A stretch of 40,431 bases of DNA from Mycobacteriales bacterium (GTDB taxonomy: Bacteria > Actinomycetota > Actinomycetes > JAFAQI01): positions 1-40,431 of the forward strand of contig DATJSI010000068.1 in NCBI GenBank assembly GCA_035504215.1. Direction: 5' to 3'. Positions within the stretch are counted from its first letter, which is position 1. Each line of letters starts with the position of its first letter. Below, one piece after another: positions 3,001 through 26,484 of this stretch. Made by a program: the position numbers and the translations under genes. The notes under the pieces are model-generated. The model was not told where the DNA came from and made no database searches. It saw only the letters and a program-made list of their open reading frames with translations.

Positions 3001-3813
3001 ATGACAGCTTCCGGACCGGACCCGCTCGCGGAGGGCTATCCGACGTCGCTCGGCATCTCGACCCCGACGGCCATCCGACTGCTCAACCAGGACCTGGCCG
3101 AGGAGCTGATGGGACGGGTCGGCTTCGGTGCGCTCGCCTTCTGGCTGCTCGCCCGGCGCCGGCCCACACCGTCCGAGGTGCGGGTCTTCGAAGCCGTGCT
3201 CGTCGCGCTCGCCGACCACGGGTTCACGCCCACCGCGATCGCGGCGCGGATGACCTACCTCAGCGCACCGGACGCGCTGCAGGGCGCGGTCGCCGCCGGG
3301 CTGCTCGGCGGCGGCGCCCGCTACCTCGGCGTCACTGAGGACGCGGCTCGCTTCCTGGCCGACGCGATCGGGCCGAGCGACTCCCTGCCCGACGATGCGG
3401 CCGGCTGGGACGCGCTGGCCCGTGACGTCCTCGGCGCCGGTCGCGCCGCGGGCGGGTACGTGCCGGGTCTCGGTCACCCGGTGCACAAGACGGTCGACCC
3501 ACGCACGCCGCGGTTGATCGCCATCGCCCGCGAGGAGTCGACGTACGGCCCACATCTGGCGCTGTTCGAGGCGATCGGACGCATCCATCCCGAGGTCCTC
3601 GGCCGCACGCTCCCGCTGAACGGCGCCGGCGTGTGCGGAGCCGCGCTCGCCGACCTCGGGCTCCCGGTCGATCTGCTGCGCGGCGTGGCGCTGCTGGCCA
3701 GGACCGCCGGGCTGCTCGGTCAGCTCGCCGAGGAGCGGGCTCGGCCGGTGGCCGGGCAGATGTACGCCGAGATCGATGGCCGCGCCCGCGAGGTCCCACT
3801 CGACCCTCGCTAG
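3001..3813 (+). CDS. Citryl-CoA lyase / citrate synthase-like protein
   Basis: The 270-residue protein resembles the short citrate synthase-fold proteins annotated as citryl-CoA lyase, which cleave citryl-CoA to acetyl-CoA and oxaloacetate. GLGHPVHK (His at 159 and 162) matches the His320 region of citrate synthase. LQGAVAAGLLGGG occupies the place where citrate synthase has PLHGGAN, so the His274 equivalent reads as Gln. YAEIDGRAREVPLD fits the catalytic Asp region near the C-terminus. The frame is open from 2785, but the ATG at 3001 follows GGTGGGATCGGGTC and gives the family-like start. The reading is for a stand-alone small protein without a CoA-ligase partner in the window; the physiological reaction is uncertain. 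Confidence 0.75.
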   Translation: MTASGPDPLAEGYPTSLGISTPTAIRLLNQDLAEELMGRVGFGALAFWLLARRRPTPSEVRVFEAVLVALADHGFTPTAIAARMTYLSAPDALQGAVAAGLLGGGARYLGVTEDAARFLADAIGPSDSLPDDAAGWDALARDVLGAGRAAGGYVPGLGHPVHKTVDPRTPRLIAIAREESTYGPHLALFEAIGRIHPEVLGRTLPLNGAGVCGAALADLGLPVDLLRGVALLARTAGLLGQLAEERARPVAGQMYAEIDGRAREVPLDPR

Positions 3814-4021
3814 CGCGGCTCGCCGCAATCCGCCGCAATCCGGGCACCGGATCGCGCCCGACGCCGTTTTGCGCGCTTCGCCGCATATCCGAGGCGTCGC
3901 CTCACACGGACGGCGCAGTAAGTGTTGGTGCATTTGGGCGAGGCCGTTGGTCATCCTCGGCCGAACACGGAGGACGACGCGGGGCCGATGGAGGAGGAGG
4001 GACTGGGAGAGGGGGTTCTTG

Positions 4022-6277
4022 GTGGCGCGTATCCAGCGCAGCCACGTGGTGACGACCGTCGCCATGGTGGCGCTCGCCGCCTTCGTGATCTCCACCATTC
4101 CCGGCGTACGACCGCACCCGGGCTACAACCTCTACCTCGACGGCTTCCTGAACAACTTCGTCTACGCCATGTCCGCGGCGGTCTGCTATGAGCGGGCGCG
4201 AAAAGCGACGACGTTTCGGCCGAGCTGGTTCATTCTCACGATCGGCCTCGCGCTCTACGGCGGCGGGAACATCTACTGGACGATCTTCATCCGGCCGCTG
4301 AACCCTGAACCTTTCCCCTCACTCGCCGATGCGCTGTTCCTCAGCTTCATCCCCTGCGCGTTCATCGCGCTCGTGCTCATGGTCCGGGAGCACTTCAAGC
4401 GCTTCAGCCTCAGCCTCTGGCTCGATGGAATCGTCGGAGGCCTAGCCGCGACGGCAGGCGCCGCGGCCGCCATTCTCGGCCCGGTGCTGTCGACCACCAC
4501 CGGCAGCACCGCGGCCGTCATCACCACGACCGCCTATCCGCTCCTCGACCTCGTGCTGTTACTGACGCTGGTCGCGACGCTCTCGCTGTACCACTGGCGC
4601 CCGCCGGTCGGCATGTGGCTCCTGGCCTGCGGCCTGCTCTGCTTTCTCGTGGCGGACGGCGTCTACACCGTCCTGACCGCGCACAACTCGTACCAGCCGG
4701 GCGGCCTCAACGACGCCCTGTGGGTGACCGGAACGATGATCATGGCGATGGCGCCCGGCTGGCCGGACCGACTCGCGGGTCTTCGCTTGTCCGGCTGGTC
4801 GTTGCTCGCCGTACCCGTCGTGTCGACTCTCACCGCGCTCGCCCTGCTGGTGTACGGCAAGATCCACCCGGTCGCCGTCGGCCTCGCGGCCGCCACGATC
4901 GTCGTCGCGCTGGTCCGGCTGCTCGTCACCTTCAAGGAAGCGTCCAACCTCGCGGACAGCCATCAGCTCGCCTTGACCGACGACCTCACCGAGCTCGGCA
5001 ACCGGCGCGCGCTTTACATCCGCTCGGAGCAGGTGCTCTGCGAGCCGGACGTGCAAGCCGCGTTGTTGCTCCTCGACCTCGACCGGTTCAAGGAGGTCAA
5101 CGACAGCCTCGGCCACCACGCCGGCGACGAGCTGCTGCGGCTGGTCGCGCGCCGCATCACCGACACCGTGCCCGCCAGCGACTCGCTCATGGTTCGCCTC
5201 GGCGGCGACGAGTTCGCCGTCTTCCTGCTGCACGCCGACCAGACCCTCGCCGAGCGAGTGGCACTCGACATCCGCGAGGCACTGTCAATGCCGTTCGGGC
5301 TCGAGGACGTGTGCGTGCGGATGACGGGCAGCATCGGCGTCGCGATCGCACCCGACCACGGCCTCGAGATGTCCTCGCTGCTTCGGCACGCCGACATCGC
5401 GATGTACCGCGCGAAGTCGCAGCGCACCGGCTACAGCGTCTTCTCGCGGACCGGCGACGACGTCGACGGGCGCGACCGGCTCCACCTCATCGACGATCTG
5501 CGTACGGCGATCGTCGACCGCCAGCTGACCATGCACTACCAGCCGAAGGTAGACGCCAGCAGCTTCCGCGTTCTGTCGGTCGAGGCGTTGGTGCGCTGGA
5601 ACCACCCGACCAAGGGGCTGCTGCTGCCGGCGTCGTTCCTGCCGCTGGTCGAGGACTCCGGCCTGATGCACGAGATGACGGTCGCGGTGCTCGAGCAGTC
5701 CCTCGACCAGGTCCAGTCGTGGGTGGCCAACGGCACCAACCTGCCGGTCGCGGTCAACCTGTCCCCGTCCTCGCTGGTCGACATCGAGCTGCCGCAGCGG
5801 CTCGAGCGCATGCTGGTGGAACGCGGTCTCGACTCCTCCTTGCTGATCCTCGAGATCACCGAAGACGTGATCATGAGCGACCGCGACCGTGCGCGGCACA
5901 TCCTCGACGAGCTGCGCCGGATCGGCATCCAGGTCGCCGTCGACGACTTCGGAACCGGCTACTCCTCGCTCGCCTACCTGCGCGAGCTCCCGATCGATGA
6001 GCTCAAGCTCGATCGGTCGTTCATCGCGACGATGGGCGCCGACGAGCGATCGCTCGCCATCGTCCAGTCCGCGATCGACCTCGCTCACTCCCTCGGTCTG
6101 CGCATGGTGGCCGAAGGGGTCGAGGACGAGATCACCGCACGCCGGCTCTGCGACGCCGGGTGCGACGAGGCTCAGGGCTTCTATTTCAGCCAGGCACTGC
6201 CGGTCGCCGAGTTCGAGGCGTGGCTGTGCACCTACGAGGCCACTCTCGACACCGCCGACCTGAAAGTAGGGGCATAG
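4022..6277 (+). CDS. Membrane GGDEF-EAL c-di-GMP turnover protein
   Basis: This protein of about 751 residues begins with eight or so hydrophobic helices over roughly 300 residues, a MASE-like sensor of unknown ligand. A GGDEF domain follows with LTDDLTELGNRR and an intact RLGGDEF (GGDEF at 394-398), and then an EAL domain (EALVRW, EAL at 521-523). The EAL catalytic set looks complete: NLSP, EITED, DDFGTGYSS, LKLDRSF and AEGVED. The product-inhibition RxxD site is absent (ASDS aligns there). Both synthesis and hydrolysis of c-di-GMP are therefore possible. The start is chosen at GTG 4022 (TTG 4019 also possible) because GAGAGGGGG lies just upstream; the longer open frame from 3776 overlaps the previous gene. 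The acyltransferase gene begins 3 bases after the stop. Confidence 0.9.
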   Translation: MARIQRSHVVTTVAMVALAAFVISTIPGVRPHPGYNLYLDGFLNNFVYAMSAAVCYERARKATTFRPSWFILTIGLALYGGGNIYWTIFIRPLNPEPFPSLADALFLSFIPCAFIALVLMVREHFKRFSLSLWLDGIVGGLAATAGAAAAILGPVLSTTTGSTAAVITTTAYPLLDLVLLLTLVATLSLYHWRPPVGMWLLACGLLCFLVADGVYTVLTAHNSYQPGGLNDALWVTGTMIMAMAPGWPDRLAGLRLSGWSLLAVPVVSTLTALALLVYGKIHPVAVGLAAATIVVALVRLLVTFKEASNLADSHQLALTDDLTELGNRRALYIRSEQVLCEPDVQAALLLLDLDRFKEVNDSLGHHAGDELLRLVARRITDTVPASDSLMVRLGGDEFAVFLLHADQTLAERVALDIREALSMPFGLEDVCVRMTGSIGVAIAPDHGLEMSSLLRHADIAMYRAKSQRTGYSVFSRTGDDVDGRDRLHLIDDLRTAIVDRQLTMHYQPKVDASSFRVLSVEALVRWNHPTKGLLLPASFLPLVEDSGLMHEMTVAVLEQSLDQVQSWVANGTNLPVAVNLSPSSLVDIELPQRLERMLVERGLDSSLLILEITEDVIMSDRDRARHILDELRRIGIQVAVDDFGTGYSSLAYLRELPIDELKLDRSFIATMGADERSLAIVQSAIDLAHSLGLRMVAEGVEDEITARRLCDAGCDEAQGFYFSQALPVAEFEAWLCTYEATLDTADLKVGA

Positions 6278-15236: not shown

Positions 15237-15272
15237 GCACCGCCGGGCATCGGCCGGACCGGCCGGCGGTGC
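15237..15272 (-). terminator. Hairpin after the diguanylate cyclase gene
   Basis: GCACCGCCGG and CCGGCGGTGC form a perfect 10-bp stem (15237-15246 with 15263-15272), with a loop that contains further CCGG palindromes. The stem begins at the last base of the diguanylate cyclase stop codon. No T-tract follows. It also lies directly upstream of the secreted beta-repeat gene. Confidence 0.5.
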
Positions 15273-16291
15273 TAGTTGCCGCGGACGATCTGCTGGTAGC
15301 TGATGTGGTCGCAGTTGCGGCCGGCCTGCTTCGACGTGTACAGCGCCTCGTCGGCAGCCGTCAGCGCGATCGTCACCGGCGTCGAGTCGGTCACCGCAGA
15401 GATGCCGCTCGAGAACGTGAGACCCGGATGCATCGACGCCCAGCGGATCCGCATCCGGATCAACACGTCGAGTGCCGCCTCGGGCGAGGTCCCGGCCAGC
15501 AGCAGGACGAACTCCTCGCCGCCGTACCTGCCGGCCGCATCCTCGCCGCGCAGAGACGCGGTGAGCAATGCGCCGAAGTCGGCGAGCACCCGGTCGCCCG
15601 CCGCGTGGCCCTCACGGTCGTTGAGTGCCTTGAAGTGGTCGAGGTCGCACATCACGATCGTGTCGCCGACCTGCGCCGTCGTGAGCCGGTTGTCGAGCGC
15701 GCGACGGTTGATCAGGCCGGTGAGGGAGTCGATGTGCGCGTGCCGGGCGAGCACCAGCCGGTCACGCGCGGCTCGCTCGCTGCGGAAGGACAGCAGCTCG
15801 CCGACGAGGACCCAGATCAGCACGCCGATCACCAGCCGGATCGCGACCAGTGCCGACCAGGAGTCCTGGGCGACCAGCCAGACCGCAGACGCGACTGGAG
15901 CGAGCGCAACGCTGGTGAACGGCGGCTGGGTCAACCCGACGTAGACGAAGCAGAGGTTGATGAAGCCGGTGTAGGCGAGCGCCGCGCCATCGTCGGCGAT
16001 GCCGAGCGCGGTCAGCGCGGCCAGGACGCTGACCGGATAGATCAACGGCATCCGCGACGGCTCGTCCCGCCACGGCAGGTACGGCGTGAAGAGGAACACC
16101 GCGAGCATGCCCAGGCTGACGACGAGCAGCGCGTATGGAGTGGTCCTGGTCGGGTGCAGCGACCAGATCGTCGTACCCACGATGACGCCGCAGGTGAGCA
16201 GCATGGCGCGACCCAGTGCCACCTGGCCTACCGCCGAGCGCGGGCTGTGGAAGACCTCCGCTACCGACTCGACGCGCGGAACGCGCTTCAC
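15272..16291 (-). CDS. Membrane diguanylate cyclase (GGDEF)
   Basis: The 339-residue protein has about six hydrophobic helices (residues 25-170) followed by a GGDEF domain starting at DSLTGLINRRAL. The active-site motif is GGEEF at 257-261 (GRYGGEEFVLL), and RGED at 248-251 is a correctly spaced RxxD inhibitory site, so it is predicted to make c-di-GMP with product feedback. It has no EAL domain. The GTG start has no Shine-Dalgarno sequence, and a sigma-28-like -10 ends 6 bases before it, so the mRNA is probably leaderless. The N-terminal sensor input is unknown. Confidence 0.92.
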   Translation of the reverse strand: MKRVPRVESVAEVFHSPRSAVGQVALGRAMLLTCGVIVGTTIWSLHPTRTTPYALLVVSLGMLAVFLFTPYLPWRDEPSRMPLIYPVSVLAALTALGIADDGAALAYTGFINLCFVYVGLTQPPFTSVALAPVASAVWLVAQDSWSALVAIRLVIGVLIWVLVGELLSFRSERAARDRLVLARHAHIDSLTGLINRRALDNRLTTAQVGDTIVMCDLDHFKALNDREGHAAGDRVLADFGALLTASLRGEDAAGRYGGEEFVLLLAGTSPEAALDVLIRMRIRWASMHPGLTFSSGISAVTDSTPVTIALTAADEALYTSKQAGRNCDHISYQQIVRGN

Positions 16292-18071: not shown

Positions 18072-18149
18072 CAACGGGAAACCGCACGCCGGTCGCGCCG
18101 CCGTGGCCGGAATCCAGTCGGCGTGCGCAGCACTCGGGCGGTTGTCGAG

Positions 18150-19559
18150 ATGAGCGGGCAGGATCCGGACGCAGCGACCGACGTGCACCGGCGGACACCA
18201 GGTCAGCCGCTGCACGGTACGGGGACCTCGATCGCGGTTCTCGTCCTCAGTGTGGTGCTCGTCGCGGTGGCGGCGGTCGGGGTCGGCACGGATCCGGGCG
18301 TCGCCATGGCCGCGATCGCCGTCGTGGCCGGTCTTGACGTCCTCGCCGCGTTGATGCTCGTGCGGCAGTACCGCACCACCGGCGAGCGACTGCGCCGCCA
18401 GCTCGATCGAGCCGACGAGCTCGAGCGCCTGCAGACCACTCTGCTCGACCACATGATCGACGGCGTGTACATGCAGAACCGGGACGGCAAGTTCCTCGCC
18501 TACAACCACGCCGCCCGCACGATCCTCGGTCTGAGCGAGGCGGAGCTCGCCGGCGGAGCCGCCCTGGACGCGTTCCGCAGCCGGCTGCTGCACGCCGACG
18601 GCAGCCGGTGGAGCGGCACCGACCTGACCCCGCCCCAGGCGACGTTTGCGACCGGCCAACCGCAGCGCGAGCTGGTCGTCGGGGTCGACAAGGGAACCGG
18701 TGAGCCGACCTGGATGTCGTTCAGCACGGCACCGGCAATCGGACCGGACGGGCGCGTCGAGGCGGTCGTCACGTGCCTCAGCGATGTCACCGACCGGCAC
18801 TCGGCGCGGCTGGCGGCCACATCCGTGGCGGCGCAACGCCGGCAACGCGTGCTCGACGTACTCGACCGGCAGCGCATCTCGATGGTGTTCCAGCCGATCA
18901 TGGCGCTCGACAACGGGCGCATCGTCGGAGCCGAGGCGTTGGCCCGGTTCCCCGGCCACCCCAACCCGACCCCGGACGTCTGGTTTGCCGACGCTGCCGC
19001 CGAGGACCTCGGCCTCGACCTCGAGCTGGCCGCGATCAGCGCCGCTCTCGGCCGGTTGCACGACCTTCCGGCCGGCGCCTACCTGTCGGTGAACGTCTCG
19101 CCGGCGGCGGTCCTGTCGCCGCAGCTGCAGCGGCTGCTCGGCGGCGTACCGGCGCACCGCATCGTGGTGGAGCTCACCGAGCACGAAAGCGTGGACAACT
19201 ACGAGGAGGTCGTCGGCGCGCTGCGCGTGCTCCGTGCGAGCGGGGTGCGGCTAGCGGTCGACGACGCGGGAGCCGGCTTCGCCAGTCTCCGGCACATCCT
19301 CAACCTCCGGCCGGACCTCATCAAGCTCGATCTCGGGATCACCCGAGGCATCGACGACGACCCCGCCCGGCGTGCACTCGCCGCCTCGCTGCTGGCCTTC
19401 GGCGCCGAGATCGGCGCCGGCATCGTGGCGGAAGGCATCGAGACCGCGAACGAACTCGATGCATTGAAGGCGCTCGGTGTCCGCTTCGGCCAGGGTTACC
19501 ACCTCGGGATGCCGGCGCCACTGCCGCTCACGGTCACCGAGGCGGCACTGGCGAGCTGA
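18150..19559 (+). CDS. Membrane PAS-EAL c-di-GMP phosphodiesterase
   Basis: The 469-residue protein has two membrane segments (about residues 25-50 and 55-78), a PAS domain (about 95-215, LLDHMIDGVYMQNRDGKFLA onward) and an EAL domain with E262 (EALARF). The EAL catalytic set looks intact: NVSP, ELTEHES, DDAGAGFASL in place of DDFGTGYSS, LIKLDLG, AEGIET and QGYHLG. It should hydrolyse c-di-GMP to pGpG, with the PAS domain or membrane part as sensor. No GGDEF domain is present. ATG 18150 is chosen because it starts just before the hydrophobic region; GTG 18123 adds nine residues. The DUF6458 gene is convergent 18 bases downstream. Confidence 0.9.
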   Translation: MSGQDPDAATDVHRRTPGQPLHGTGTSIAVLVLSVVLVAVAAVGVGTDPGVAMAAIAVVAGLDVLAALMLVRQYRTTGERLRRQLDRADELERLQTTLLDHMIDGVYMQNRDGKFLAYNHAARTILGLSEAELAGGAALDAFRSRLLHADGSRWSGTDLTPPQATFATGQPQRELVVGVDKGTGEPTWMSFSTAPAIGPDGRVEAVVTCLSDVTDRHSARLAATSVAAQRRQRVLDVLDRQRISMVFQPIMALDNGRIVGAEALARFPGHPNPTPDVWFADAAAEDLGLDLELAAISAALGRLHDLPAGAYLSVNVSPAAVLSPQLQRLLGGVPAHRIVVELTEHESVDNYEEVVGALRVLRASGVRLAVDDAGAGFASLRHILNLRPDLIKLDLGITRGIDDDPARRALAASLLAFGAEIGAGIVAEGIETANELDALKALGVRFGQGYHLGMPAPLPLTVTEAALAS

Positions 19560-19960: not shown

Positions 19961-21637
19961 TCACTCGGTCAAGGTCGCGGTCACGGGACCTGGTTCGACA
20001 GCTGACGCCGTGACGTTCGTCGGCGTCTCCACCACACCGACCCGCGGCGCACGTGAGATCTCGTCGACACTGATGCACAGGATCGCGATGTCGTCGCGAA
20101 GACGATCCGGGTCCACGCCCTCGAGCACCAACGCGCACAGCGAGTCCGCATCGAGGTCGTCCGATGCGCCTTCGACCAAGGCGCGGAGCTCGGCCAACGA
20201 GTCGGACAGCGACACTCCCGGCACTTCCAGGAGACCGTCGGTGAACAGCAGCAGGATCGAACCTGCTGCAACCCGGTACTCGGCTTCCGCGCGCCTGGTC
20301 GGGGTGGCGACCGGAGCACCGAGCACGAGCGACCCGCCGGCGGCCAGCTCGTCGACGGTGCCGTCGGGCCGCCGGACGAACGGCGGCAGGTGCCCGCCGT
20401 TCGCGAACGACAGCAGCCGCTCGCCGTCCGCGTCCGGAGGGCCGAGTACGCCGTAGAAGACGGTCACCAGCTCGGAGATCTCGAAGCTCGACACCAGGTC
20501 GTCGAGGCGGTCGAGGACTTCGGACGGGCGCGCGCCACTCGACGCGTAGGCGCGAAGTGACGCTTGCAACTTCGACATCGCCGCGGCGGCCGCGATGTCG
20601 TGGCCGACGACATCGCCGATCACGATGCCCGTTCGTTCGCCATCGAGTGCGAACACGTCAAACCAGTCGCCGCCGATCTCCTGGTGAGCCGAGCCGGGCA
20701 GGTACCGCGCGGCCAGGCCCAGACCGGGCACGACCGGCAGCGTCGGCAGCAGGCTGAGCTGCAGCGCCTCGGCGACTCGGTGCTCGGTGTCGTACAGCGC
20801 GAGCGCCGACCGCCGGCGCCGGCTCTCGATCTCGACGACCACCGCCATGAGAGCGGTCACCAGCACGCCGCCGCCAAGGACGATCCACGGTGCCGCCGAG
20901 GTCGCGCCCCCGACCAGCGGGTGCTTGGCTGACGCCTGCAGCGTCCAGGTCGTGGAGCCCGCCATCAGTGGCTCGGTGTGGACCAGCCCGGTGAGAGGCA
21001 GCGTGCTAGTGGTCTCTGCAAGGACATCGCGCCGGATCGGTCGCGGAGCGGCATAGATGACGACGCGCAACTCGCTGAAGGGCGCGGCGCCGGCCGACCT
21101 CGGCGCTCCGATCGGACCGAGCAGGTCCTCGCGGTAGAGCACCGTCCCCGCGGGTGCGACCGGAGGGCCCAGCGCGAAGCCGAGCGCGCGGGTCGCACCG
21201 TGCCCGATAACCGCCGTCGGCACCAGCTGTGTCGTGGTCAGCGCCTGCTCGAAGGCGCGCGCTCGGGGCCCGGTGACCACCTCACCCTTGTGCAGGCCGG
21301 CGCCCTCCGCCATCGCGACGACAAATCCGGTCGGCGTCTTGCGGATCAGAGCGAAGGTCACCTGCTGGGTCGAGCCGGTCTCGGCCGCGGCGCTCGCCCG
21401 CTCGAACGCAATGGGCGACTCGTGGGTGGCACGCAGAACTCCGCCCAGCACCTGCAACGGAACCGGCAACGCGCTGATGGAGGAGTCCAGCACGAGTCCG
21501 ACCTCGTTGGTGCGCTCCTTGAGCAGACGACGCTCCTGATCGCGTACCGCGACGCGGGTGACCCAGGCCCCGACTCCCGTGATCACCAGCATCACCACGA
21601 TGACGGCGATGCTGAGCGGCCGCAGCTGTCGTGTCAT
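19961..21637 (-). CDS. Membrane SpoIIE/PP2C serine phosphatase (RsbU-like)
   Basis: The 558-residue protein has a membrane segment (9-29), an extracytoplasmic sensor of about 215 residues, a second membrane segment (251-270) and a SpoIIE-type PP2C phosphatase domain (about 305-535). Metal-binding aspartates are visible at D324 (GGDWFD), D342 (IGDVVGHD), D467 (FTDGLLE) and D515/516 (RDDIAI). It should dephosphorylate an antagonist such as the STAS protein encoded 1.1 kb away. Its ATG overlaps the stop of the HATPase gene by 4 bases, so the two are translationally coupled. The sensor ligand is unknown. Confidence 0.9.
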   Translation of the reverse strand: MTRQLRPLSIAVIVVMLVITGVGAWVTRVAVRDQERRLLKERTNEVGLVLDSSISALPVPLQVLGGVLRATHESPIAFERASAAAETGSTQQVTFALIRKTPTGFVVAMAEGAGLHKGEVVTGPRARAFEQALTTTQLVPTAVIGHGATRALGFALGPPVAPAGTVLYREDLLGPIGAPRSAGAAPFSELRVVIYAAPRPIRRDVLAETTSTLPLTGLVHTEPLMAGSTTWTLQASAKHPLVGGATSAAPWIVLGGGVLVTALMAVVVEIESRRRRSALALYDTEHRVAEALQLSLLPTLPVVPGLGLAARYLPGSAHQEIGGDWFDVFALDGERTGIVIGDVVGHDIAAAAAMSKLQASLRAYASSGARPSEVLDRLDDLVSSFEISELVTVFYGVLGPPDADGERLLSFANGGHLPPFVRRPDGTVDELAAGGSLVLGAPVATPTRRAEAEYRVAAGSILLLFTDGLLEVPGVSLSDSLAELRALVEGASDDLDADSLCALVLEGVDPDRLRDDIAILCISVDEISRAPRVGVVETPTNVTASAVEPGPVTATLTE

Positions 21638-22626
21638 CTGCGGTCGGCGTCCAGGTTCGTTCCCCCGGACGGCGCGGGTTCGTCGACCCCGTAGGGCCAG
21701 GAGGTGGCGGCTTGGCCCGAGAGCTGGCGGACGATCTCGTCGGTGTACCAGCGGCGGAAGCGGACCACCTCCGGCGTCGATGGAGGCGTCAGCAGCTCAC
21801 CGCGCCGGCAACTCGCGTCTGCCTCGTCGAGCTGGTCGGCCATCAGCGCGACCTGGGCATGAGATCCGGAAGGGAACAGCATCGACACGTCGACGGTTCG
21901 CTTGCCCGCCCGCCGCGCAGCCTCGACCTGGGCCCGGCGCTCCTCGTTGCCCACCCCGAACTGCTCGACGATCTTCGCCGCAAGAACCAGCAGGCCCGGC
22001 GCGACCCGCCCACCACCGTGGTCGGTGCCGGACTGCAGCAGCAGTGCGAACTCGCGCACGAGCGCGTCGTGGTGCTCCTCGACGGCGAGGTACGTCGCAA
22101 CCGGCAGCCCGCGCAGCCACACGGTGAAGGCGGGGCCGCCGAGCGTGCCCGGCGGGGCCGCCGCCGGCGCTGGTGCGACCGGCTCGCTGTCGTAGGCGTC
22201 GCGGCTGGTGACTTGGTGCCCCGGGCCGCTGCGGCTCGCACCGTCGGCGACACGGAACCACACCGACTTGCGCATCGCGTCCGCGTGCACGCCCCACTCC
22301 TCGGCGAGCGCCTCGACCAGATGCAGCCCTCGACCGGTCGCCGCGTCCTGCTGATAGGTCTTCAGGACCGGCTTGCTCGGGTTGTGGTCGGAGACCTCGA
22401 TGGTCACCACCGCCCCGGCGCGGGTCGCCGCCACCTCCACCACGTCGGTGGTGTGCAGGATCGCGTTGGTGACCAGCTCGGAGAGCAACAGCTGGACAGT
22501 CGCCAGGCCGTCCGAGGACCACCCGCTCAGGTAACCGGCGAGCCAGGTGCGGGCCTGGCCGACCGCGGCGGGATTCGCGGCAAGGTCGAGCCGTTCGCGG
22601 TCGGGCTGCGCCACGCGGCTCACCAT
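21634..22626 (-). CDS. HATPase anti-sigma kinase-like protein with extra C-terminal domain
   Basis: The 330-residue protein has an N-terminal HATPase_c domain of the RsbW/SpoIIAB type (about residues 10-125). The N-box has E50 and N54 (SELVTNAILH) and the G2-box is GRGLHLVE (98-105). This family phosphorylates a STAS antagonist and binds a sigma factor. Residues about 150-320 form a second, unrecognised domain (LPVATYLAVEEHHDALVREF onward, rich in His, Arg and acidic residues). The C-terminal domain is unusual for an anti-sigma factor of about 140 residues. It is divergent from the STAS gene and coupled to the phosphatase gene, giving a near-complete partner-switching set. Confidence 0.85.
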   Translation of the reverse strand: MVSRVAQPDRERLDLAANPAAVGQARTWLAGYLSGWSSDGLATVQLLLSELVTNAILHTTDVVEVAATRAGAVVTIEVSDHNPSKPVLKTYQQDAATGRGLHLVEALAEEWGVHADAMRKSVWFRVADGASRSGPGHQVTSRDAYDSEPVAPAPAAAPPGTLGGPAFTVWLRGLPVATYLAVEEHHDALVREFALLLQSGTDHGGGRVAPGLLVLAAKIVEQFGVGNEERRAQVEAARRAGKRTVDVSMLFPSGSHAQVALMADQLDEADASCRRGELLTPPSTPEVVRFRRWYTDEIVRQLSGQAATSWPYGVDEPAPSGGTNLDADRR

Positions 22627-22660
22627 CGCCTATCGGGCCCGGATTGCCCAGGCATCCGAC

Positions 22661-22666
22661 TAATCT
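22661..22666 (+). promoter_or_regulatory. Possible -10 element of the STAS gene
   Basis: TAATCT fits TANNNT and would start transcription about 70 bases before the GTG at 22743. No matching -35 is visible. The 116-base divergent region otherwise holds nothing I can identify. Confidence 0.3.
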
Positions 22667-22742
22667 TGACGATGACGCCAGCAACCGAGCCGACCGGGCC
22701 GACGACGGCTGCGGGTCGCCATGGAGCAGGGGGACCGGATCT

Positions 22743-23081
22743 GTGCAGTTCGGACTGACCGTCGACGACAGTCATCCGCCGTACGCGGTGCTCACCGCGT
22801 CCGGGGAGATCGACGTGGCAACCGCGCCCGATCTGCGCGCCGCGTTGCTCGACCTGATCGGCGAGGGCCGCACCCGCATCGTGGTCGACCTCGAGCAGGT
22901 GGAGTTCCTCGACAGCACCGGCCTCGGCGTCCTTGTCAGCACCGTCAAGCGGGTCCGCGCGGACGGCGGGGACCTCTCGGTGGTCTGCACCCGGCCGCAG
23001 ATCCTTCAGGTCTTCGAGATCACCGGCCTGACGGCGGTGTTCTCGGTGCACGACAGCCTGGACCAGGCGGTCGCCAGCTGA
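22743..23081 (+). CDS. STAS anti-sigma factor antagonist (RsbV-like)
   Basis: The 112-residue single-domain STAS protein has the phosphoacceptor motif DSTGLG (Ser at residue 58). In partner switching the unphosphorylated form binds the kinase and frees the sigma factor, and the SpoIIE phosphatase removes the phosphate. GTG 22743 is chosen because AGGGGGA lies 8 bases upstream and the domain starts directly after; the open frame extends to 22644. It is divergent from the HATPase gene by 116 bases. No sigma factor gene is in the window. Confidence 0.92.
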   Translation: MQFGLTVDDSHPPYAVLTASGEIDVATAPDLRAALLDLIGEGRTRIVVDLEQVEFLDSTGLGVLVSTVKRVRADGGDLSVVCTRPQILQVFEITGLTAVFSVHDSLDQAVAS

Positions 23082-23622: not shown

Positions 23623-24057
23623 ATGGAAGACCGTGAGATGCTGCTCACCGAGGCCTACGACGAGGGCGTCGTCACCGAGGTCATCCGGCCGGCGGCGATC
23701 GTTCCGGAGCAGGCGGCACGTCAGGTGCTGGTCGAGCTCGCGATGCGCGACGTCCGCATGGGTGGCCTGTGGTGGTCCGAGCCCACGATCTGGCGGCGCT
23801 ACGACCGGTCGTGGAACGGCACCGACGGTGGCACCGGATCGGCCGAGGTGCTCGGCACGATGCAGATTGCCTACGGCGTGCCCACGCGCTTCGACATCAC
23901 GATCTACCGCGCGACCATCACCCGGCTCGGCTGCGAGCACGGGATGACGGTGACCAGCCTGTGTGACGAAGCGCTCGCGTTCGGCGGCCTCACCCTCGAC
24001 ACCTGCCCGCGCGCCGATCTTCAACCGCCGCCGCGGCCGTTCCGCATCCGCTCGTAG
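23623..24057 (+). CDS. Hypothetical protein of 144 residues
   Basis: A soluble protein beginning MEDREMLLTEAYDEGVV. It has an acidic N-terminus, a Trp-rich middle (GGLWWSEPTIWRRY), a GVPTRFDITIYRATITRLGC strand region, and Cys at about 100, 110 and 125. The C-terminus is proline-rich and basic. GAGGAG lies 6 bases before the ATG. High GC3 and its own intergenic space support it. I do not recognise a family. It lies between the stress module and the HD-GYP gene (convergent). Confidence 0.7.
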   Translation: MEDREMLLTEAYDEGVVTEVIRPAAIVPEQAARQVLVELAMRDVRMGGLWWSEPTIWRRYDRSWNGTDGGTGSAEVLGTMQIAYGVPTRFDITIYRATITRLGCEHGMTVTSLCDEALAFGGLTLDTCPRADLQPPPRPFRIRS

Positions 24058-24106: not shown

Positions 24107-26338
24107 TCAGAGCACCGCGACGAAGTGCACGGTGCAGGTCGTGGAGGCACCGAGCACGTTTGCCACCGTGAAGGTGAGCGAATCCGTGCTGAGCAGACCC
24201 GCACCCGGCGTATAGACGATGGTGTGGGTACCGGTCACCCGTGCAGAGCCGTGCTTGGGTGATCCCGAGATCGACAGCGTCGACCAGTCGATCGGCACGT
24301 CGGGGTCCGCGACCAGGTTCGACGCATCGATGGTGACGGCCTTGCCGATCGTCGCCGAGAGGTTCACCGCAGTGGCGTCCGGGGCGACCGCGCCCACGAC
24401 GCCTGACACGTCGGTCCCGGTCAAAGTGGCCCCGCTCAGGACGATATTGCGAACCGTGGCGGAGGCAAGGTCGGCATCGGTCAGGTCGGCGTTCGTGAAG
24501 TCGGCACCGGTCAGGTTCGCGCCGGTCAGGTCGGCGTTGCGGAGCGATGCGCCGGTGAACGTGAAGCCGGACAGGTCCATCCCGGACAGGTCGACACCGT
24601 CGAGGTTCGCGTGCGCCTGGTCGTGGCCGAGCACGTTGACCGTCAGCTCGGCGGCGCCGCAGCGGCCGGCGCTGTCGCACACCTGGTAGGTCAGCTGATC
24701 CACGCCGACGAAACCGGGCTCCGGCTGATAGCTGACGTTCCCGTCCGAGCCGACCGTGGCGGTGCCGTGCGACGGGTGGTCGGCGATCTGCAACGTCGAG
24801 GCCACGACATTGGTCACGGTCGAGCTCAGCACGTCCACGGTCGCAGAGATGTCCTCGACGGCGTACATGGTCGTCGCGGCGATCGACAAGCTGCCCGGAC
24901 CCGAGCTCGGCGCCGGCGACGGCGTCGGCGACCCGCCACCGGAAACCGGGGATCCTCCGGTCGGTGTGCCCGGATCCGAGGCGCCGGGCGTGCGGGAAGC
25001 CTCTGGCGGAACGACGCCGCTCACGCGCGGCGGCAGGTCTGAGCGAGGACCGAGCACGGTTCCCGCATGCGCATCGGACACGGTCTCGACACCGCCCCCG
25101 GCGACGGTGCCGACGGACCCACCGGAGTGCAGCGCCGTCGCACCGGCCAACCGCGAACCGCCGTCCACGTGCCCGTGGGAGTGAGTGTGGCGATGCACGA
25201 CGCTGGTCACCATCGCGGGTGCGGCCGCCACGCCGATGACGCTCGCCGCCGCCGCAACGCCCGCGGTCGAAGCGCTCTGCAGCGGCAGTGCGCTCGCCTG
25301 CGTCCCGAACTTCGCGAGGCTGCGCAGGAAGGGCAGCTGTACGGCGAATGCCAGCGGCCCCATCGCCCAGAGCACGCGCGGCAGGGAGATCGACAGGAAG
25401 GAACGGACGAAGTCGGGGTCGAACTGGCTGCCCGCGCAGTCCGCGAGCTCGGTGCGCGCGGCCCGCGTGGTCATCGCCTTCTTGTAGACCCGTGCCGCCG
25501 TCATCGTCTCGAAGGAGTCGACGATGCCGACGATCCGGCCGGCTCGGGAGATCTCGGTGCCGGACCGACCATGCGGGTAGCCGCGACCGTCCCAGCGTTC
25601 GTGGTGGTCGACGATGCCGCCGCCCCACTCCCCCAGCCACGGCAGCAGCGGCGCGGCGATCTCCGCTCCCAGCGTCGGGTGCCGGCGGATGCGGGCGAAC
25701 TCTCGGTCGGACAGCTTGGCCGGCTTGTTCAGGATGGTGGGCGCGATCTCGAGCTTGCCGATGTCGTGCAGCAGAGCCGCCCACCGCAGCCGATCGCGAT
25801 CCCCGCGCGAAAGCCGCAGCTGGTCACCGAGCAGGTCGCAGTACAGCCGAACCCGCTCCGAGTGGCCGCGCGTCTTGCGGTCGTGGTTGCCGAGCGCAGT
25901 GATCAGCGTGAGAACCTTCTCGGCCGCCACCTGCGCCGTGTCGTCGTCGCTTCGGGCCAGCCGGGACAGCTGCTGGCCGGTCGACCCGGCGGCCCGCGCG
26001 ATGCGCATCCGCGACGGCGCGCGGTCAGGGAAGAGCATGGTCAGCCGGAGCAACGAGGCGAGCGGCAGCAGCCGCCGGGCTCCGCGTTCGACGACGAACG
26101 CGACCACGACAGCGACGGCGGCCAGCCCGGCCAGCCACCAGCCGCGGCCGCCGCTCGGCGCCGGCCACAGATGCGAGACAAGGAGGAGCGCCCCGCTGCT
26201 CACGACCAGCGGGGCGAGCAGGATCGCGGCCCGCAGCGTTCCGGCCGCGACCGGTCGCGCGTCCCAGCGATCCATCGCTTCCGAGTCAGCCGCCGGCGGG
26301 CGGGACGACTCCGGCGGGCTCGAATTCGCGCCATCCAC
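24107..26338 (-). CDS. HD-GYP phosphodiesterase with pentapeptide-repeat and Ig-like C-terminus
   Basis: With GTG 26338 as start the protein has about 743 residues. Two membrane segments lie near 35-83. A complete HD-GYP c-di-GMP phosphodiesterase domain follows (about 140-310): HSERV, HDIGK (H191-D192), HHERWDGRGYP (GYP 253-255) and RIVGIVDSFETMT. Further hydrophobic helices (about 321-381) precede a His-rich linker and a Pro/Gly/Ser-rich region. Then come an Ig/cadherin-like domain (about 490-570), a pentapeptide-repeat stretch A(D/N)LxG (576-645) and a second Ig-like domain with two Cys. The C-terminal half is probably outside the cell. The start is set at 26338 by the promoter; TTG 26383 and ATG 26275 are alternatives. 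Confidence 0.85.
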   Translation of the reverse strand: MDGANSSPPESSRPPAADSEAMDRWDARPVAAGTLRAAILLAPLVVSSGALLLVSHLWPAPSGGRGWWLAGLAAVAVVVAFVVERGARRLLPLASLLRLTMLFPDRAPSRMRIARAAGSTGQQLSRLARSDDDTAQVAAEKVLTLITALGNHDRKTRGHSERVRLYCDLLGDQLRLSRGDRDRLRWAALLHDIGKLEIAPTILNKPAKLSDREFARIRRHPTLGAEIAAPLLPWLGEWGGGIVDHHERWDGRGYPHGRSGTEISRAGRIVGIVDSFETMTAARVYKKAMTTRAARTELADCAGSQFDPDFVRSFLSISLPRVLWAMGPLAFAVQLPFLRSLAKFGTQASALPLQSASTAGVAAAASVIGVAAAPAMVTSVVHRHTHSHGHVDGGSRLAGATALHSGGSVGTVAGGGVETVSDAHAGTVLGPRSDLPPRVSGVVPPEASRTPGASDPGTPTGGSPVSGGGSPTPSPAPSSGPGSLSIAATTMYAVEDISATVDVLSSTVTNVVASTLQIADHPSHGTATVGSDGNVSYQPEPGFVGVDQLTYQVCDSAGRCGAAELTVNVLGHDQAHANLDGVDLSGMDLSGFTFTGASLRNADLTGANLTGADFTNADLTDADLASATVRNIVLSGATLTGTDVSGVVGAVAPDATAVNLSATIGKAVTIDASNLVADPDVPIDWSTLSISGSPKHGSARVTGTHTIVYTPGAGLLSTDSLTFTVANVLGASTTCTVHFVAVL

Positions 26339-26376: not shown

Positions 26377-26484
26377 GCCGCAAACCGCCTAAGCCACTCG
26401 CCCGTTCGGAGCACGCCGGGCGCGCCGCTGGACGGACCCGAACGGGTCAGGGCGCGTCCACTCGGAGGCGACCCCGCCGCGACC

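Follow-up and report, generated by a model that had tools for sequence, protein, structure and literature searches.

How can an HD-GYP domain and what looks like a surface module be combined in one polypeptide, and on which side of the membrane does that module lie? The question is raised by a gene on the minus strand of the window, by which we mean the whole stretch of 40,431 nucleotides analysed here, taken from a draft genome of 150 contigs. A first-pass annotation had placed at 24107-26338 a single open reading frame in which an HD-GYP domain is followed by hydrophobic helices, a Pro/Ser/Gly linker, an Ig-like domain, about 14 pentapeptide repeats and a second Ig-like domain. The frame and each of these elements are present in that order, and they are preceded by an N-terminal membrane hairpin that had not been listed. 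A TTG at 26383, adding 15 amino acids, and an ATG at residue 22 are alternative starts. The complete order is as follows.

24107..26338, minus strand: whole gene, HD-GYP/Ig/pentapeptide protein, 743 codons (743 amino acids), GTG start
26174..26230, minus strand: TM1, residues 37-55 (Kyte-Doolittle 2.25)
26087..26143, minus strand: TM2, residues 66-84, then RGARR, positive and inside (Kyte-Doolittle 2.03; Lys + Arg counts)
25412..25900, minus strand: HD-GYP catalytic domain, residues 147-309 (HD_5, 3e-31; family conservation; alignment to 4mcw)
25322..25378, minus strand: amphipathic segment H1, residues 321-339, R..GP..W/F...P (column profile of the family)
25193..25264, minus strand: TM3, Ala/Val/Gly-rich, residues 359-382 (Kyte-Doolittle 1.91; near-chargeless columns 360-374)
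24899..25192, minus strand: Pro/Ser/Gly/His-rich linker, residues 383-480 (from the sequence; GC3 0.79 for 386-480)
24635..24880, minus strand: Ig-like domain 1 (Big_9), residues 487-568, with the Cys pair of CDSAGRC (Pfam, 2.3e-20)
24401..24610, minus strand: 14 pentapeptide repeats, residues 577-646 (Pfam; unit count against shuffles)
24110..24394, minus strand: Ig-like domain 2, about residues 649-743 (second Big_9 stretch)

Pfam analysis of the whole protein places the HD_5 stretch at residues 147-309 (E = 3e-31), with both the HD and the GYP motifs present. The best pentapeptide stretch, residues 577-616, scores 66 bits against a cut-off of 20.2 (E = 2.1e-18), and the repeats number exactly 14 consecutive units, whereas 2000 shuffles of the tail reach at most 7. 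When the tail is analysed alone two separate Big_9 stretches are found, each below 0.001 on its own, which supports the second Ig-like domain; the best stretch of Cadherin_4 (652-709) reaches only 0.038, and Pfam finds no PASTA domain in the window protein. GC3 lies between 0.79 and 0.94 across seven segments of the gene, so that the composition gives no sign of a chimera. Single-sequence AlphaFold2 models of the tail and the N-terminal part had mean pLDDT values of 47.1 and 44.3, too low for use.

Is this architecture peculiar to the window protein? Using residues 1-391 as query (E = 1e-50), the TM-TM-HD-GYP core is found in at least 49 sequences (the window included) from at least 36 genomes. 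It is matched in at least 18 of 393 genomes of the class and at least 18 of 396 of the phylum, our own genome being in both counts; these are lower bounds, as four candidates per genome were scored in both large searches. Three follow-up searches at family level (17, 5 and 4 genomes) added one genome, G751. The phylum searched is presumably the Actinomycetota, and the genomes are presumably actinobacterial. Within the window's own taxonomic family there are members in three of 11 other genomes (G003, G005 and G007), and none of these four sequences has an Ig or pentapeptide tail. The set includes four frames that lack a stop codon (G369, G082, G427 and G540).

The tails of these proteins are diverse, with a mean column identity of 7% in their alignment. 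Pfam was applied to 47 of them, leaving out G427 and G540. Ig-like domains (Big_9) occur in six, those of the window, two neighbouring G471 genes, two G618 genes and one G751 gene; PASTA domains occur in two, G449 (E = 3.4e-12) and G480 (E = 1.2e-13). The remaining 39 match neither of these nor pentapeptides and are mostly rich in Pro/Ser/Thr and Ala/Gly, so that a recognised binding end is unnecessary for most members. The combination of HD-GYP and pentapeptides, which the first-pass annotation had proposed to seek in other actinobacteria, is, among these 47, confined to the window protein. Its impression of an unusual layout was right in that the catalytic domain is indeed followed by a membrane-like segment and tail, but this layout is a trait of the family, and within the 47 tails only the pentapeptide block is unique. 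The window protein is probably an elaboration of a broader family of receptor-like HD-GYP proteins, built like the PASTA kinases.

Cysteines are distributed differently in the two parts of these proteins. Of the 11 tails with Cys, 10 have an even number and the window, with three, is the exception; in the membrane and catalytic part the number is odd in 27 of 49, even in 17 and zero in five. The CDxxGxC type of Cys pair is seen again in G618a, G618b and G751a, the last being a protein of 1652 amino acids whose tail has ten Big_9 stretches and 20 Cys. Among the 39 unmatched tails, those of G211, G496a, G003, G005a and G007 each have a pair of Cys, and these five are possibly folded. Some individual loci can be noted here. 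At L100:2856-8802 two neighbouring HD-GYP genes have Ig tails, with similar-looking Cys-pair ends that have no Pfam match. The PASTA-tailed G480 (L110:5399-7102) has GYH for its GYP motif. In G541a (L123) the HD-GYP frame stops early and Ig-coding sequence continues in another frame; having no Pfam match, it was counted as lacking Ig.

The hydropathy of the window protein has four 19-residue peaks on the Kyte-Doolittle scale, at residues 37-55 (2.25), 66-84 (2.03), 315-333 (1.45) and 359-377 (1.91). The first two constitute the N-terminal hairpin. Lys and Arg number three in the 15 residues before TM1, one in the hairpin loop and four in the 15 residues after TM2; these counts apply to the window alone, since in about half of 23 sequences the stretches picked automatically as TM1 and TM2 coincided or overlapped. 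The other two correspond to the hydrophobic helices noted earlier after the catalytic domain. Both segments exist, but only the second is likely to cross the membrane. Of 48 family sequences, counting the window, 43 have a TM3-like segment that scores 1.4 or more, measured as a 19-residue window 83-143 residues after GYP, and 27 of them reach 1.6; G540 is excluded, its contig ending before TM3. The five that score lower are G256a, the PASTA-tailed G480 (1.22), G421, G496a (1.04) and G628b. As a control we took 24 other HD-GYP frames (L007-L030), of which four were too short, and just one of the 20 scored (L027, 1.65) reached 1.4. The first-pass annotation had made its case hang on a C-terminal helix that spans the membrane, and this comparison supports it. 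Moreover, Asp, Glu, Lys and Arg make up 0-4% of columns 360-374 of the family alignment although the residue types vary, which is the mark of a membrane segment. In the window TM3 is Ala-rich and of only moderate hydrophobicity. A-x-A patterns after TM3 might mark an internal signal-peptidase site, but carry little weight in Ala-rich sequence.

The segment H1 has a different character. Among 49 sequences R321 is found in 38, G327 in 42, P328 in 38, Trp or Phe at 331 in 39 and P336 in 41. The frequency of charged residues is 88% at column 321 and 50% at column 323, and from 325 to 338 there is a largely uncharged core of about 14 residues. H1 probably lies in the plane of the membrane. An internal N terminus, two crossings, a cytoplasmic HD-GYP domain and one further crossing would place the tail outside. 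The TM3 pattern, the PASTA and Ig tails of relatives and the even Cys numbers all suggest that the C-terminal half is probably extracytoplasmic, and we strongly infer this C-out topology. The extracellular second half of the first-pass annotation is thus probable, but would be reached by a single crossing at TM3 and not by both C-terminal segments.

Is the catalytic domain intact? Its motif residues are H159, H191/D192, K195, H220, H245/H246 and D274, with HDIGK at 191-195 and GYP at 253-255. The solved chains closest in sequence are 5z7c, the 3'3'-cGAMP-specific phosphodiesterase 3, and PmGH (4mcw). The metal ligands of PmGH are H189, H221, D222, H250, H276, H277 and D305, plus E185 (PMC4159591). 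On alignment seven of the eight are kept in the window, as H159, H191, D192, H220, H245, H246 and D274, together with the equivalents of PmGH D183 and K225. None of these varies within the family alignment, where the constancy of H191, of the GK that ends HDIGK (K195) and of the GY is partly built in by the family motif filter. The eighth position, E185 of PmGH, is K155 in the window and is replaced in 48 of the 49 family sequences. The column contains R (19), K (8), H (6), A (4), P (3), L (3), V (2) and S, M, G and E once each, and never D, Y or F. The HD-GYP subgroups described in the same paper are E/D-T-G and Y/F (PMC4159591). The window has K155-T-R in place of the E/D-T-G of the trinuclear subgroup, and with R or K in 27 of 49 sequences and E in one, the family belongs to neither. 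It looks like a further variant of the HD-GYP metal site, perhaps one that binds two metals. The putative substrate of the window enzyme is c-di-GMP.

The content of the genome fits the receptor reading given below, with 19 matches to PF00990 (GGDEF) and one to PF13487 (HD_5). The window holds four genes for c-di-GMP-type enzymes, the HD-GYP gene included, clustered within about 20 kb of the latter. The other three were assigned by Pfam.

3776-6277, plus strand: GGDEF-EAL gene
15272-16291, minus strand: GGDEF gene
18123-19559, plus strand: PAS-EAL gene

Near the HD-GYP gene (19961-23081) there is also a partner-switching set of SpoIIE phosphatase, HATPase_c_2 and STAS, and a 144-residue frame with no Pfam match at 0.001 faces it (23623-24057, plus strand). 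No Pfam family is common to the window's ten scanned frames and 18 neighbouring frames at seven other loci.

The origin of the tail was sought by searching with the Ig-pentapeptide-Ig half (268 amino acids). In the 393 class genomes no full relative was found at 1e-12; four other genomes gave partial matches only, one of which is the pentapeptide block of an NTPase-like protein. The possibility raised earlier that the C-terminal half is a separate protein in relatives was not borne out, as among these matches parts of the tail occur only inside other proteins. By identity, the cores most similar to that of the window are in G069a (56%) and G569 (55%), whose tails, of 138 and 101 amino acids, are of low complexity. 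A scan of genome contigs for related loci gave one, which lies in an Anaerolineae MAG and aligns with residues 546-646. A match of G013 to residues 483-740 (1e-5) was rejected as a tail relative, being an Ig array that lacks the pentapeptide block. On the tree of the core the Ig tails require three changes. A single gain followed by two losses would account for these, only one change is forced by well-supported branches, and the bootstrap had not converged, so that repeated gain is no more than possible. On present sampling the pentapeptide block is lineage-specific.

Similar modules are found in other proteins. L073 has an Ig array of the CDxxGxCD type like that of the first Ig-like domain, and ends in LPHTG plus a hydrophobic stretch, which we take to be a sortase signal. 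L067 is a pentapeptide protein with a signal-peptide-like start, and L076 is part of an open frame of 5404 amino acids in which pentapeptides follow an Ig-like array; these two are likely precedents for extracytoplasmic pentapeptides. The pentapeptides of L070 and L075 are within NTPase-like proteins that are presumably cytoplasmic. L074 is an open stretch of 919 amino acids, nearly all of it pentapeptide repeats.

What would such a protein do? We think it rather probable that the window protein is a single-chain, receptor-like HD-GYP phosphodiesterase, in which contacts made by the tail outside the cell alter the activity or the location of the enzyme. The N-terminal hairpin and the HD-GYP domain would be on the cytoplasmic side, followed by H1 in the membrane plane and by TM3, which would cross it. 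The flexible linker would bring the Ig-pentapeptide-Ig rod to the cell wall or through it, where the rod could bind envelope, matrix or a neighbouring surface. Binding would be passed via TM3 and H1 to the C-terminal helices of the HD-GYP domain, changing its activity or cellular place and hence the local level of cyclic dinucleotide. The domain order, the TM-like segments, the retained catalytic residues and the PASTA or Ig ends of relatives are read from the sequences; signal transfer, ligand and direction of control are what we infer from them. On this evidence the most likely function is to link the hydrolysis of cyclic dinucleotides to contact with the envelope or a surface.

Several observations sit less easily with a receptor. 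Recognised binding domains are missing from most tails, and this makes anchoring without regulation its main rival. The tail would be outside but would only position or retain the enzyme, by wall anchoring, spacing or localization, with catalysis left unregulated. The 39 unmatched tails among 47 and the free variation of tail sequence fit such a role, as does the extracytoplasmic domain of PknB, which consists of four PASTA domains and is reported to bind muropeptides and to be needed for localization (PMC3145798). Yet H1, just before TM3, is conserved family-wide, a sign that it may be coupled to the catalytic domain, and we regard pure anchoring as unlikely, though as the strongest of the alternatives. 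The odd Cys number of the window, the moderate hydrophobicity of its TM3, the five low TM3 scores, the control at 1.65 and the lack of a Pfam family shared with the neighbouring frames at the seven other loci also count against the receptor.

The side of the membrane could also be wrong. H1 reaches 1.45 in the window, and were it to cross as well as TM3, or were neither to cross, the tail would be a cytoplasmic scaffold for protein interactions; pentapeptide proteins are often cytoplasmic, as in L070 and L075. We consider this improbable, given the short uncharged core of H1, its two conserved prolines and flanking Arg column, and the occurrence in certain relatives of PASTA and Cys-paired Ig domains at the corresponding position. 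Least probable is that the Ig-pentapeptide-Ig half is a functionless recent fusion or a misjoin of the draft assembly. It is known from one draft genome, with no full relative of the tail in the class search and none of this half in the nearest core relatives, but it is encoded in one frame without a stop, GC3 is alike in both halves, the 14 pentapeptide units are unbroken, and Ig tails occur in five other family sequences.

Extending the receptor reading to the whole family is more tentative, and we would not yet lean towards it. The family might comprise widespread actinobacterial outside-in receptors, analogous to the PASTA kinases, in which a C-terminal ectodomain that binds wall or surface directly controls an intracellular HD-GYP domain of non-canonical metal site, with no two-component system. 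If so, the state of the peptidoglycan or cell contact would set the level of a second messenger through PASTA, Ig/cadherin-like or Ig-pentapeptide-Ig ectodomains. In monoderm bacteria little is known of how the state of the cell wall or surface reaches cyclic-dinucleotide signalling. The surface may directly control an internal signal molecule, with other outside domains at the same place in some relatives. If a phosphodiesterase carried an ectodomain of its own for binding wall or surface, the link from wall to signal could be tested in one protein.

In the literature searched, with most subscription papers outside it, we found no HD-GYP protein with a pentapeptide repeat, a PASTA domain or an extracellular immunoglobulin-like domain, and no description of this receptor-like family; some papers do mention HD-GYP together with cadherin, and one mentions it with Actinobacteria, transmembrane and extracellular domain. 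Known systems nevertheless share parts of the design. PmGH and 5z7c have the same type of catalytic domain; seven of the eight PmGH ligands, the D183 and K225 equivalents and GYP are kept in the window protein, which differs at the E185 position and adds what is probably a C-terminal TM segment with an ectodomain. In Streptomyces venezuelae, HdgA and HdgB are also actinobacterial membrane HD-GYP proteins, but are described as 6TM-HD-GYP and 6TM-degenerate HD-GYP, respectively, with no further domain listed (PMC6205966). L067, L073 and L076 have the module types of the window tail, apparently outside the cell judging by their signal-peptide-like or LPHTG ends, but no HD-GYP domain in the parts examined. 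A parallel in layout is with the PASTA Ser/Thr kinases such as PknB and PrkC, in which a cytoplasmic enzyme is followed by a TM segment and a C-terminal extracytoplasmic module, and which are thought to act through contact of the ectodomain on the intracellular enzyme. The order of enzyme, TM and putative ectodomain would be the same, and two relatives of the window protein (G449 and G480) carry PASTA itself; in the window the enzyme is of the phosphodiesterase type, and Ig-like domains and pentapeptides take the place of PASTA.
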